Source: Anaerolineae bacterium
Lineage (GTDB): Bacteria > Chloroflexota > Anaerolineae > Aggregatilineales > Phototrophicaceae
Length of the DNA stretch: 61,471 bases
Direction of reading: 5' to 3'
NCBI GenBank assembly: GCA_021296115.1
Contig: JAGWBC010000001.1
Coordinates: forward strand, 25,656 to 87,126
The stretch's first letter is position 1. Every line of letters begins with the position of its first letter. The notes beneath the pieces are model-generated. The model saw nothing but the letters and a program-made list of their open reading frames with translations. It searched no databases and was not told the DNA's origin. The translations under genes were made by a program, and so were the position numbers. Of the stretch, positions 43,861 to 49,267 are shown piece after piece.

Positions 43861-44673
43861 ATGACGCAAGGCGCCAATCGATCACAGGAACGACGCAACG
43901 TCAAAGATCACGTGCAGCAGCGATTCGGCGTTGTCGCGGCCAATTATCGCACCAGCCGTGTGCACGCGTCGGGCCAGGACCTTGATCTGATGGTCGCTTC
44001 CGTCGCGCTCGATAAAAACATAAAAGTCTTGGACGCCGGCTGTGGCGCCGGTCATACCTCGCTGGCCTTTGCCCCGCGGGTCGCGCGGGTGGTCGCCTGC
44101 GATTTTACCGGCGCCATGCTGGAGCAGGCGGCGACGCTGGCGAAGGAGCGCGGCATAGACAATATCGACACGCAGCTGGCTGATGTCGAGGACCTGCCCT
44201 TTCCAGCGCGCGGTTTCGATCTGGTGGTCACGCGATACAGCGCGCATCACTGGCTGCGGCCCCAACGAGCGCTGGCTGAGTTCCGCCGCCTGCTGAAGGA
44301 CGACGGCGTCTTCATCATCAGCGATATCATGGCGCGGGAAGACTACGCCCAGGACACGTTTCTGCAGACGATTGAATTGCTGCGCGATCCATCTCACGTG
44401 CGTGATTATCGCATTTCCGAGTGGCGGGCGATGCTGTCCGCGGCCGGCTTCAGCAGCGAGTTGCTGCTGCGCTTTGACCTGAGGCTGGGCTTTGAAACCT
44501 GGGTCAAGCGCATGGCGACGCCGCGTCAAAATGCGGACATGATTCTGTCGCTGTTCAAGGGAGCGCCGGAGGATATCCGCCGTGGCTTCGGCTGGCGGAA
44601 TGATGCGCCGGGCAGCGACATGAGCTTCACGATTCCGGGAGCGGTCATCCGCGGAACCGCGCAGCGGGATTAG
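43861..44673 (+). CDS. SAM-dependent methyltransferase (UbiE/YcgJ-like)
   Basis: 270 residues with a class I methyltransferase fold. Motif I is VLDAGCGAGHTS (about 58-69), motif II ends in VACDFTGAM, and FDLVVTRYSAHHW is the following strand and helix. The group is close to menaquinone/ubiquinone methyltransferases and small-molecule methyltransferases of the Methyltransf_11 family, but the substrate is not evident. A membrane segment is absent. It is divergent from rpoB and convergent with the ABC-F gene, with which it shares a TTAG stop overlap (44670-44673). Confidence 0.9.
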   Translation: MTQGANRSQERRNVKDHVQQRFGVVAANYRTSRVHASGQDLDLMVASVALDKNIKVLDAGCGAGHTSLAFAPRVARVVACDFTGAMLEQAATLAKERGIDNIDTQLADVEDLPFPARGFDLVVTRYSAHHWLRPQRALAEFRRLLKDDGVFIISDIMAREDYAQDTFLQTIELLRDPSHVRDYRISEWRAMLSAAGFSSELLLRFDLRLGFETWVKRMATPRQNADMILSLFKGAPEDIRRGFGWRNDAPGSDMSFTIPGAVIRGTAQRD

Positions 44674-46316
44674 CTCAGGCCCTGCGCTTCCAGAAACTCG
44701 GTGTAACCGCCGTGGAATTCGCGTAGCTTTCCGGCGCGAATCTCGACCAGGCGGTCGACGGTCTGGTCGAGAAAATAGCGATCGTGCGAGACGATCAACA
44801 CCGTTCCCAGGAATTCATCCAGCGCGTCTTCCAGCACCTCAACCGAAGCGATGTCGAGATTGTTGGTGGGCTCGTCGAGCAGGAGCAGGTTTGGCTTCCG
44901 CAGCATAACCAGGGCCAGCTGCAATCGGCTGCGTTCTCCACCGGACAGCGTGCGAATGGCTTGGCGCGCCTGTTCGTAGCTGAAGGCCATTCGCAGCAGA
45001 AAGTTCACCGCGCTGGATTCGCTGCTGTTCTGGATGTTGCGGATGAGCTCCAGCGGCGTACGGTCCAGCCAGGCGTCCAAGGTCTGATGCTCTTGCGAGT
45101 AGTAGCCGATACGAATGCTGGGGCCCAGCTTGATTTCGCCCGCCAGCGGCGCAAGTTCGCCAAGGATCAAGCGCAGCAGCACCGTTTTGCCCGCGCCGTT
45201 GGGCCCGATGACGCCGACCCGCTCGCCATGACGCAGCAGAAGATCGGCGTCGATGATCAGCGGCTGATCATCGAATGCGACTGAGACATCGACCAGTTCA
45301 AGGACCTTCTTGCTGCCGCGCCAGCCGTCGACTTTGAAACCCATCAGCCGGGGATCGGCGACTTTGTCGATGATTTCGCCGCGCTCTTCCATCTTTTCCA
45401 GCATACGACGCCGTTGACGCGCAGCCAGCATATGCTTGCGGCTCAGCACCTGTTTGGCCCAGCGTTCGAAGCGTTCGATCATTGCTTCGAGGCGGGCGAT
45501 TTCCTTCTGCTGCGTCACATATTGCTGCTGTTGACGCAGGCGCCGCAATTCTTTCTCGTTGAGGTACCAGGAATAATTGCCGTGATAGGTGGTGAGCTTG
45601 CCCTCGGCCAGTTCCACGGTCTGCGTCGCCACTTCGTCCAGCAGGTAGCGGTCGTGGGAGATGATGACAACGCACTTGGGATAATTGAGAATGAAGCGCT
45701 CAAGCTGATTCTTGCCGGCCATATCGAGGTGGTTGTCGGGTTCATCCAGCAGCAGAATGTCAGGGGCGGATACGGCCAGCTGCACCAGCGCCACCATCTT
45801 TTTTTGACCGCCGGAGAGCGCGGCTGTCGGCAGTTCGAAGTCATCCGCGCTGAAACCCAACATCGCCAGCAGTTCGCGCACATGGCTGGCGTGGCGGTTG
45901 CCGTTCATCGCTTCAAAATGCAGGAGCTGCGCCTCGAGCTCAGCAAGTGTCTGCGAAAGCAGCGCTTCATCGCCGTAGACCGTCGGATCGGCCAACTGGC
46001 TTTCGATGGCGCCCAGCTTTTCTTCCGCCTGGGCCAATTCCGGCGGCTTGATCAGCGCGGTTTCAATCAGCGACTTATCGGCCGGCAAGCTGATATCTTG
46101 CGGCAAATAGCCGATGCGAATGCCGCGCTGCGCCGTGATCTGGCCGCGGTCAGGCTCGACCTCGCCCAAAAGAACCCTGAACAATGTCGACTTGCCGGCG
46201 CCGTTGGGACCGACCAGGGCGATGCGATCGCGGTCGCCAATGGTCCAGGACAAGCCGCGATATAGCTCGCTGCCGGCGAGATTTACCGTGATATTATTGA
46301 CCTGCAGTACTTGCAT
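44670..46316 (-). CDS. ABC-F family ATPase
   Basis: 548 residues from ATG 46316, with two ATPase domains and no membrane part; ABC-F proteins act on the ribosome, some of them protecting it from antibiotics or relieving stalling. Domain 1 has Walker A GPNGAGKST (36-44), signature ALSGGQKK and Walker B LLLDEPDNHLD (188-198). Domain 2 has GPNGAGKT, LSGGERSR and LLLDEPTNNLD. Between them is the linker with KHMLAARQRRRML, the P-site tRNA interaction motif region. The first Walker B box has Asp194 where most members have Thr (DEPT), a change worth noting. The subtype is uncertain. Divergent from the M19-like gene. Confidence 0.92.
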   Translation of the reverse strand: MQVLQVNNITVNLAGSELYRGLSWTIGDRDRIALVGPNGAGKSTLFRVLLGEVEPDRGQITAQRGIRIGYLPQDISLPADKSLIETALIKPPELAQAEEKLGAIESQLADPTVYGDEALLSQTLAELEAQLLHFEAMNGNRHASHVRELLAMLGFSADDFELPTAALSGGQKKMVALVQLAVSAPDILLLDEPDNHLDMAGKNQLERFILNYPKCVVIISHDRYLLDEVATQTVELAEGKLTTYHGNYSWYLNEKELRRLRQQQQYVTQQKEIARLEAMIERFERWAKQVLSRKHMLAARQRRRMLEKMEERGEIIDKVADPRLMGFKVDGWRGSKKVLELVDVSVAFDDQPLIIDADLLLRHGERVGVIGPNGAGKTVLLRLILGELAPLAGEIKLGPSIRIGYYSQEHQTLDAWLDRTPLELIRNIQNSSESSAVNFLLRMAFSYEQARQAIRTLSGGERSRLQLALVMLRKPNLLLLDEPTNNLDIASVEVLEDALDEFLGTVLIVSHDRYFLDQTVDRLVEIRAGKLREFHGGYTEFLEAQGLS

Positions 46317-46436
46317 ACTTGAGCTCGCTGCCTGGTGGTAGTGAAGAGTGCGCTTCGAGGATAGCACAAGTGGCGGCGGGCTTGGATGGCCCAGGACAGC
46401 AGCGCCCATACTCTAATATTAAAAGAGATGATCTTT

Positions 46437-46477: not shown

Positions 46478-47539
46478 ATGATAATCGTTGACGCCCAGCA
46501 AAATATCGCCTTCAACGCCCAGCAGCTTGGGCGCGACTATGTGAAATGGGCCTGGAATCAGCGCCAAAGTGATTCGCGCGGCGACGCGCCGCCCGCCACC
46601 ACCAGCCTGTATGACAATCTGCTGGGGAGGGTCGCCATTGTCTTTGGCAGCCTGCAAGTGATAGCCGAGTCGTCGCCTCACTTAAAAGCCTGGCAGCCAT
46701 TCAGCTATCGGTCGGCTGACGATGCCCGGCAGCTCGCGCTTTGGCAGCTGGATTATTACCGACGCCTGGCCGACGAGAATGACAGCATCCAGCTCGTTCT
46801 CACGCAGCAAGACCTGAGGACGGTGTTAGAGTCCTGGGATCCGGATAAGTCTATCGGCCAGCGCGTTCAGGGAATCGTCGTCCTTATGAAGGGGGCTGCA
46901 GCGATAAGGGAACCGCAGCAATGCGAAGAGTGGCTGGAATATGGGCTGCGAATCGTGGCGCCGGCCTGGCAGAAAAATCGCTACACTGATGGCTATGAGG
47001 GCGATCTTACGCTGACGGGCTATGAGCTGCTAGAAGTGATGGCCGGCTTCAATCTGCTGCTTGACATATCCGGACTATCAGAGCGCGCTTCGGCGGACGC
47101 CATTGAGCGTTACGGCGGTCCGATTTTCGCCAGCCACGCCAATCCGCGGCGCTTTCACGATAGTCCGCGCTGCCTGGCGGATTCCTTGATTCATCGGCTG
47201 GCGGAGCGCGATGGAGTGATGGGCATCATGGTGTATAATCGTTTTCTAAGGAAAGACTGGCATCGCAGCGACCCGCAGCGACGGGTTACGGTGTCGCATT
47301 GGGTTGACGCGGTAGATTATGTCTGTCAGTTGACCGGCGCTGTTGACCATGTTGGGCTGGGCAGCAACATCGACGGCGGATACGCTTTTAACAGTTTGCC
47401 TGATCAAATTGATACGGCCAGCGATTTATGGCTGCTGCGGAAGGCCCTGCTCGAGCGCGGATTCAGCGCAGACGATGTACGGGCAATTCTGGGCGGCAAT
47501 ATGCTGCGCAAATTGAGGGAGTCCTTGCCGAAGGGCTAG
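46478..47539 (+). CDS. M19 dipeptidase-like protein lacking most metal ligands
   Basis: 353 residues from ATG 46478. The whole length follows the renal/membrane dipeptidase (M19) layout: an N-terminal VDAQQN, LLLDISGLS, PIFASHANPRRFHDSPRCLAD, and HVGLGSNIDGG. In the active family these read D-G-H-N-D, D-V-S-H, S-H-S plus R-N, and H-V-G-x-G-S-D-x-D-G. Compared with them, His and Asp of the first site are Gln7 and Asn9, the bridging Glu of the E-G-G element is Lys138, and the next His is Gly199; only His220 is kept. The fold is likely conserved, but the dinuclear zinc centre is not, so a non-hydrolytic or changed role is likely. It is followed after 5 bases by a four-helix membrane protein gene. 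Confidence 0.85.
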   Translation: MIIVDAQQNIAFNAQQLGRDYVKWAWNQRQSDSRGDAPPATTSLYDNLLGRVAIVFGSLQVIAESSPHLKAWQPFSYRSADDARQLALWQLDYYRRLADENDSIQLVLTQQDLRTVLESWDPDKSIGQRVQGIVVLMKGAAAIREPQQCEEWLEYGLRIVAPAWQKNRYTDGYEGDLTLTGYELLEVMAGFNLLLDISGLSERASADAIERYGGPIFASHANPRRFHDSPRCLADSLIHRLAERDGVMGIMVYNRFLRKDWHRSDPQRRVTVSHWVDAVDYVCQLTGAVDHVGLGSNIDGGYAFNSLPDQIDTASDLWLLRKALLERGFSADDVRAILGGNMLRKLRESLPKG

Positions 47540-47544
47540 AACTT

Positions 47545-48060
47545 ATGTGGCGCTTTGCACAAGTTGGCATTGCCTTAGGCGCTCTGGGCGTCATGATTTG
47601 CTTCATGGGGCTGTTTCCCGGGGTAACCGGCGCCCCGACCACCGTCGGCATCGGCCTGGTTCAGGTGGCTATGGTGCTAGTCGGCTACAGCCTGCTCATT
47701 CTGGGCGCATTGACCTATCTCAAGTACACATTTTTTCTTGAAGTTCCAGCCACGCTAAGCCAGCAAGTCGGCGTGCGTCTGGCGCTGACGGGCATTTTGT
47801 TTGCCGCGCTGGCCGGGCTGGCGGATATCCTCGGTTTCGGCACTCACATTCGCGATGATTCCGGCGATATCTTTTTCGGGCAGCTGCAGGTGATCGGCAT
47901 CCTGGCGAGCTTTGCTTTGTCATCGCTAGGCGTCCTGGTTTACGTTTTAGCGGGGGCGCACATCGCCCGGCACGCCCCGGTGGAGGCGCTCAGCGAGAGC
48001 ATCGCCGGCGTTGACGACACCAGAGAGTTGATGCTGGTCGAACTCGACGAGCCGCTGTAG
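47545..48060 (+). CDS. Four-helix membrane protein of unknown function
   Basis: 171 residues from ATG 47545, only 5 bases after the M19-like gene, so the two are almost certainly co-transcribed. Four hydrophobic helices: about 4-24, 33-54, 73-96 and 111-134, with short loops and a C-terminal acidic tail (about 145-171, ending in VELDEPL). No family recognised. The arrangement suggests a partner of the M19-like protein, which is inference. Confidence 0.8.
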   Translation: MWRFAQVGIALGALGVMICFMGLFPGVTGAPTTVGIGLVQVAMVLVGYSLLILGALTYLKYTFFLEVPATLSQQVGVRLALTGILFAALAGLADILGFGTHIRDDSGDIFFGQLQVIGILASFALSSLGVLVYVLAGAHIARHAPVEALSESIAGVDDTRELMLVELDEPL

Positions 48061-48100: not shown

Positions 48101-49267
48101 GTGCAAGTTTATAGGAAGTCGGCGCCGAGCAAGCCTGCCAAGCTGCTATACGTGGTCAACATCCCGCGTTTTTTTGTGTCGCATCGCCTGCCCCTGGCTT
48201 TGGCGGCGCGCGCTGAGGGATTCGATGTTCAGGTCGCGGCATCCGATGCGGATCCGGAATCGGCTGAGCGCATCGCCGCGGCCGGATTGCCCTTTCATCC
48301 CTTGCCTTTGAGCCAGCACGGCCTGAATCCACTGCGCGAGCTGCGGACGATTTTTGCCTTGCGACGGCTGTACAAGCGCCTCGAGCCCGATTTGCTGCAT
48401 CACGTCAGCATCAAGCCGGTGATCTACGGCGGCATCGCAGCCAAGTTAAGTCGACGCCGCTCGGTCATCCAGGCGATGAGCGGCTTGGGCTACCTGCACG
48501 TCAGCGAACAGCGGCGCGCCAGGCTGCTCGAGAAGCTCAGCAGGCCGGCGTTTAAGTTCGCGCTTGCGGGCGCCGGCACAGTCATGATTTTCCAGAATCC
48601 GGACGATCGGCACGTATTCGTCATGCGCGGTTTGGTCGCGGCGGAGAGGACCGTGGTCATACGCGGCTCGGGCGTAGACGAGATGGAATTCGCGCCGCGT
48701 CCTGAAGACAGATCAGGCCTGCCGGTTGTGCTTTTCGCCGGGCGTCTGCTCTGGGAAAAAGGCGTGGGCGAATTCGTCGAATTGGCGCGCAGGTTAAAGG
48801 GTCAGGCGCGCTTTCGCGTGGTCGGTTATGAAGAGCCCAGCAGCCCGTCGAATGTGCCAGCGGCGCAACTGCAAGCTTGGCATGAGGCCGGCATCATCGA
48901 ATGGCGCGGGCAACAGTACGATATGGCGCGGGTCTTCGGCGAGTGCAATATCGTCTGCCTGCCGTCAACGTATGGCGAAGGCGTACCCAAGGTGCTGATC
49001 GAGGCGGCTGCCTGCGGACGGGCTTGCGTAACGACCGATACGCCCGGATGCCGGGAAATCGTGCGTCATGGCGCCAATGGGTTGCTGGTACCACCGAAAG
49101 ACCAGGACGCGCTAAGGGAGGCCGTAAAGCAGCTCGTCGAAGACCCGGAATTGAGACGGTCATACGGCGCCAAGGGGCGTGAGATCGCGCTGCAAGCATT
49201 TACCCTGCGCCGCGTCGCCGAAGAAACGATAGCGCTGTATCAATCGTTATTGGAAGGCGACCGCTGA
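48101..49267 (+). CDS. Glycosyltransferase family 4 protein
   Basis: 388 residues from GTG 48101, since no ATG stands near the conserved N-terminus. GT-B fold: N-terminal domain with LLYVVNIPRFFVSHRLPLAL, and C-terminal nucleotide-sugar domain with VVLFAGRLLWEKGVGEFV, LPSTYGEGVPKVLIEAAACG (the E-x7-E region with both glutamates) and TDTPGCREIV. Close to bacterial GT4 enzymes that add hexoses or N-acetylhexosamines during capsule or O-antigen synthesis. The donor sugar is not predictable. It lies 40 bases after the four-helix membrane protein and may be the end of the same operon. No other polysaccharide genes are near. Confidence 0.9.
   Translation: MQVYRKSAPSKPAKLLYVVNIPRFFVSHRLPLALAARAEGFDVQVAASDADPESAERIAAAGLPFHPLPLSQHGLNPLRELRTIFALRRLYKRLEPDLLHHVSIKPVIYGGIAAKLSRRRSVIQAMSGLGYLHVSEQRRARLLEKLSRPAFKFALAGAGTVMIFQNPDDRHVFVMRGLVAAERTVVIRGSGVDEMEFAPRPEDRSGLPVVLFAGRLLWEKGVGEFVELARRLKGQARFRVVGYEEPSSPSNVPAAQLQAWHEAGIIEWRGQQYDMARVFGECNIVCLPSTYGEGVPKVLIEAAACGRACVTTDTPGCREIVRHGANGLLVPPKDQDALREAVKQLVEDPELRRSYGAKGREIALQAFTLRRVAEETIALYQSLLEGDR

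Follow-up and report, generated by a model that had tools for sequence, protein, structure and literature searches.

How does a gene persist whose product has the layout of an M19 dipeptidase and lacks most of the residues that would hold its metal ions, and what might such a protein do? The locus that raises this question lies in a window of 61,471 nucleotides, the whole stretch of DNA analysed here, from an Anaerolineae bacterium. An open reading frame on the forward strand starts with an ATG at position 46478 and has a stop codon ending at 47539, in the frame given by a preliminary description of this DNA, and encodes 353 residues. The product matches the Pfam profile PF01244 with an E-value of 1.9e-45 (score 155.8 bits, cut-off 26), and a search of NCBIfam at E-values up to 0.1 returned no match. 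Membership of the M19 family also follows from a PDB sequence search and from structural comparison. The AlphaFold2 model, computed with 16 sequences in the alignment, has a mean pLDDT of 70.8 and a pTM of 0.76 and is weak over residues 1–51 (mostly pLDDT below 50), the region in which positions 7 and 9 fall. A fold search with this model returned M19 structures as its best 17 PDB entries, with Z-scores of 24.8–26.7, followed by the phosphotriesterases as the next family at 13.0, and Foldseek agrees with the M19 assignment. By both profile and barrel fold the protein is clearly a relative of the M19 dipeptidases by descent, which bears out the earlier statement that the M19 layout is kept.

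The residues that bind metal in M19 enzymes are well established and comprise a His-x-Asp pair, a bridging Glu and two His. A profile alignment with solved M19 structures placed positions 138, 199, 220 and 297 on site residues (the Glu of 'lEG', the His of 'DxSH', 'SH' and the Asp of 'GSDxDG', respectively), and positions 7 and 9 were assigned to the His-x-Asp pair by alignment with relatives. In the protein encoded by the window, Gln7 (codon 46496–46498, forward strand as for all those below) and Asn9 (46502–46504) replace the His and the Asp of the pair, and both alignments show Lys138 (46889–46891) in place of the bridging Glu and Gly199 (47072–47074) in place of a ligand His. His220 (47135–47137) is the one metal ligand of five that is present, and Asn297 (47366–47368) replaces the active-site Asp, which we take to be the counterpart of DPEP1 Asp288. 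All five substitutions had been named in the preliminary description, and each of them is correct. Among the 42 columns that are invariant in 36 intact orthologues, the protein departs at seven (H7, D9, G43, E138, H199, D297 and G303), five of which are ligand or catalytic positions (hypergeometric p ~1.4e-4). As judged from sequence, the absence of the zinc site is well supported, and the protein probably carries no zinc and performs no catalysis.

These states recur throughout one genus. The first search for relatives gave a match in 61 of 61 genomes; across the class, 114 genomes have a strong match, a subset of which was fetched. An orthologue is present in all 34 genomes of the genus, and every one lacks at least the Asp of the His-x-Asp pair. 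Position 7 is Q in 21 genomes, H in seven and another residue in six; position 9 is N in 32, S in one and H in one; position 138 is K in 22, E in seven, Q in four and D in one. Position 199 is the most variable (G 10, A 10, D 5, R 4, H 3, S 2), position 220 is H in all 34, and position 297 is D in 28, N in five and A in one. Outside the genus, 36 of 36 orthologues read HDEHHD at these six positions, as do 117 of the 119 non-genus rows in the widest alignment. The two other rows, known from counts, are a gap at position 297, taken as L075, whose gene is cut by a contig end, and a HHEHHD row, taken as L087, from a different M19 subfamily. Sequencing error or a lone decayed copy was ruled out, because all 34 genus genomes share the loss. 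We also considered alternative metal ligands and rejected them: with Lys138 in 22 of 34 genomes and Asp297 lost in six of 34, no replacement site is conserved.

In a tree built without the ligand columns, the 34 genus rows form one branch with a support of 100/100 and a length of 0.5. (From an M19 tree we removed two G047 fragments, a truncated row and four M19 rows that were canonical or outlying.) The survey proposed in the preliminary description, for a branch sharing both the changes and the four-helix neighbour, thus yields a single supported clade in which that neighbour is present in 34 of 34 genomes. The earliest branch, UBA6055 (L088), reads RNEHHD. A group of seven members reads HNEHHD, HNEDHD or HNDHHD; one of them, G032 (HNEHHD), is missing only the Asp. 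In the remaining 26 members His7, Glu138 and His199 are all lost. Since Asp9 is gone in all members and three further ligands in subsets of them, the site was dismantled stepwise: Asp9 was lost first, at the base of the genus, and His7, Glu138 and His199 later. This order, and the retention of His7 in seven of the 34 members and of Glu138 in seven, had escaped the earlier reading. Position 297 requires at least five changes on the tree, and Asn297 arose several times.

The genus thereby offers a natural record of a metalloenzyme taken apart ligand by ligand while its gene and its partner stayed fixed. Its living intermediates, which have lost the Asp only, the Asp plus one more ligand, or four of the five ligands, make it possible to test at what point catalysis gives way to a second role. 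They also bear on the idea that one metal ion is still bound and sustains weak peptidase activity. His220 is always present, and G032 and the like are without the Asp only; the protein of the window, however, has one ligand in five and an Asn for its active-site Asp, and we consider such residual activity highly improbable. The annotation 'membrane dipeptidase' that goes with M19 is probably a misnomer in most members of the genus, if not in all. Two side observations concern individual branches. A side branch comprising L024, L025, L026, L032 and L119 has Q or K at position 138 and R or G at position 199. In L077 (G047:C24) the M19 gene is split into two overlapping frames, as a result of a frameshift or an assembly error.

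The gene nevertheless bears the marks of selection, which speak against the view that it is decaying towards loss. In favour of decay, omega for the closest pairs is somewhat higher in the genus (0.15–0.30 versus 0.05–0.16 outside; NG86 values of 0.4–0.7 for deep outgroup pairs were taken as saturation and excluded), and in 12 of 15 genome pairs the identity is below that of the intact paralogue. However, all 34 copies are open, with no internal stop, and a quick codon-model fit over the whole tree, with kappa reported as 1, gave an omega of 0.149 in the genus versus 0.144 in the intact relatives and 0.081 in the intact paralogue (six copies). Gene order and spacing are fixed, the gene is found throughout the genus tree, and the 26 most-degraded members share 36 positions that are conserved at 95% or more and are not conserved outside, a pattern that decay would not produce. 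Decay is thus barely credible as an explanation. Constraint on the protein is clear but partly relaxed: catalytic residues have been lost along a lineage in which the protein is still selected, as befits a pseudoenzyme.

The newly conserved positions would also suit a different enzyme, in which the barrel has taken up a reaction that needs neither zinc ion, for example with Lys138, His220 and Asp297, found in 22, 34 and 28 of the 34 members, respectively. Against this, residues other than Lys (Gln, Glu or Asp) occupy position 138 in 12 of the 34 members and Asp297 is lost in six, including the protein of the window, and no alternative catalytic set is therefore fixed; we regard a new catalytic function as rather improbable.

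Two further M19 genes, on contigs C234 and C200 of the same genome, have intact ligand sets, which can explain the freedom of the M19-like protein to change. One of them (L002, G000:C200:27023-28081) encodes a second M19 protein about 34% identical to that of the window, with intact ligands, and recurs in most genomes of the genus.

What, then, has the protein been kept for? Directly downstream, on the same strand, lies a gene (47545–48060) for a membrane protein of 171 residues; it starts five bases past the M19-like stop, the distance noted in the preliminary description. Its product belongs to no Pfam or NCBIfam family, Pfam giving only a weak match under the cut-off and NCBIfam none. Four helices are seen in a low-confidence model (mean pLDDT 58, below 50 in the tail), which is too poor for a fold search. 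The membrane gene directly follows the M19-like gene in all 34 genus genomes, with a gap of 5–6 bases in 30 of them, and directly follows M19 in 24 of 36 relatives outside the genus; the pairing therefore predates the loss of the metal site. Among 249 genomes sampled across the class, 43 have the membrane gene; at some loci it stands separate from the M19-like gene, and there inspection by eye of an unannotated list of open reading frames revealed no recognisable shared neighbours. One genome of the same family, G236 (L148, G236:C23), has the membrane gene, no match to the M19-like protein at an E-value of 1e-60 and three other M19 genes, and the membrane protein can thus work alone and presumably has a role of its own. 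The open frames, the omega of 0.149, the shared losses within one clade and the partner fixed in 34 of 34 genomes support the earlier reading of a selected protein that is probably non-catalytic. We would describe it as a non-peptidase M19 homologue that has been retained as the membrane protein's partner.

The membrane protein itself changed in the same genus, a gain that the earlier reading had not seen. About 33 residues extend past its last helix in the genus (47959–48057, forward strand), with the consensus APVEALSxSIAGVDDTxE. All 32 readable copies in the genus have the core APxEALS, with A or T as its first residue, as do none of 27 copies outside, and GVDDT was read in 31 of the 32; L032, interrupted by a run of N, and L033, at a contig end, were left out of these counts. 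In the earliest branch, L088, APAEALS is present and GVDDT is absent. A search of the genome for other copies of the tail found only its own. The side branch of L024, L025, L026, L032 and L119 is the only one with TPVEALS for APVEALS, in its four readable tails. The charges R3, K60, R78 and R142 place both ends of the membrane protein inside by the positive-inside rule, and the tail should therefore be cytosolic. The M19-like protein should likewise be cytosolic because it starts at the first barrel strand, with no leader visible by eye.

We favour, with a probability of about 0.42, the reading that a former M19 dipeptidase has become a subunit of the membrane protein, with a binding or regulatory role, and docks onto the cytosolic tail that the latter gained in this genus. 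Within a single Anaerolineae genus the two-zinc centre would have been lost piece by piece; the M19 barrel would persist in the cytosol as a soluble protein, co-produced with the four-helix membrane protein and docking onto its C-terminal tail; and the two intact M19 genes could supply dipeptidase activity in the same genome. The two proteins would thus be in physical contact, with the tail as the likely contact site. Tail gain and ligand loss share one branch, at the base of the genus, and because both fall there their link amounts to a single historical coincidence, the half-formed tail of the basal L088 being the only hint of parallel change. Two further observations weigh against this reading: in G236 the membrane gene occurs without the M19-like gene, and constraint in the genus is partly relaxed. 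On the strength of this shared branch and of the joint encoding, we propose that the tail and the dead enzyme belong together, and the tail offers a directly testable idea of what the new role may be. A more specific version, in which the zinc-stripped pocket itself now holds the genus-specific tail, a peptide cutter having become a peptide-binding receptor in a new pair of adaptor and membrane protein, seems doubtful to us.

The old pocket may instead bind a small ligand, such as a dipeptide or another amino-acid compound, and report its abundance to the membrane protein, in which case the tail would be incidental. In the pocket, Arg231 (32 of 34), Tyr253 (34 of 34) and Asn254 (34 of 34) are retained in the genus together with His220, and the gene pair is fixed; Arg231 and Tyr253 are presumably the counterparts of substrate-binding residues of DPEP1. 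However, the pocket residue Trp164 is changed in eight of 34 members and position 199 takes the residues G, A, D, R, H and S, more variation than one would expect in a site for a specific small ligand, and we judge this alternative unlikely.

Known relatives differ from the M19-like protein in several respects. The bacterial M19 dipeptidases Sco3058 (PDB 3id7) and Lmo2462 (PDB 3neh) are related to it in both fold and sequence; Sco3058 retains the ligand set, and the alignment shows in Lmo2462 the set that is lost here. The best fold matches of the model are D38N and D304A mutants of the fungal M19 dipeptidase GliJ (PDB 5lx7 and 5lx1), whose mutated aspartates we take to match Asn9 and Asn297 by position; these are, however, laboratory point mutants of an active enzyme, whereas the protein described here belongs to a natural lineage. 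Intact orthologues in other Anaerolineae, such as L051 and L124, are 48–50% identical and of the same length, and many have the adjoining membrane gene, but all their ligands are present and, unlike in the genus, their membrane partner has no conserved tail. Human dipeptidase 3 (DPEP3; PDB 6vgo) shares the M19 fold (Z 25.4); DPEP3 is a mammalian protein held at the cell surface by a GPI anchor, and its active site carries few changes. Unlike DPEP3, the present protein is bacterial, lacks the active-site Asp as well as four of the five ligands, and is paired with a multi-span membrane protein. DPEP3 is described as an M19 protein without dipeptidase activity in the title of Hayashi et al. 2020, as given in the reference list of PMC12229892. 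Our literature search, covering titles and the starts of abstracts of open-licence papers, returned no description of a bacterial M19 pseudoenzyme. What distinguishes the present case from known inactive M19 proteins is how far the loss has gone, the survival of intermediates, and a membrane partner that has acquired a tail.

The gene pair is flanked by a divergent gene for an ABC-F type ATPase and a gene for a family 4 glycosyltransferase, at 44670–46409 and 48101–49267, respectively. Most genus loci examined retain both genes, and neither appeared in the flanking sequences retrieved outside the genus.
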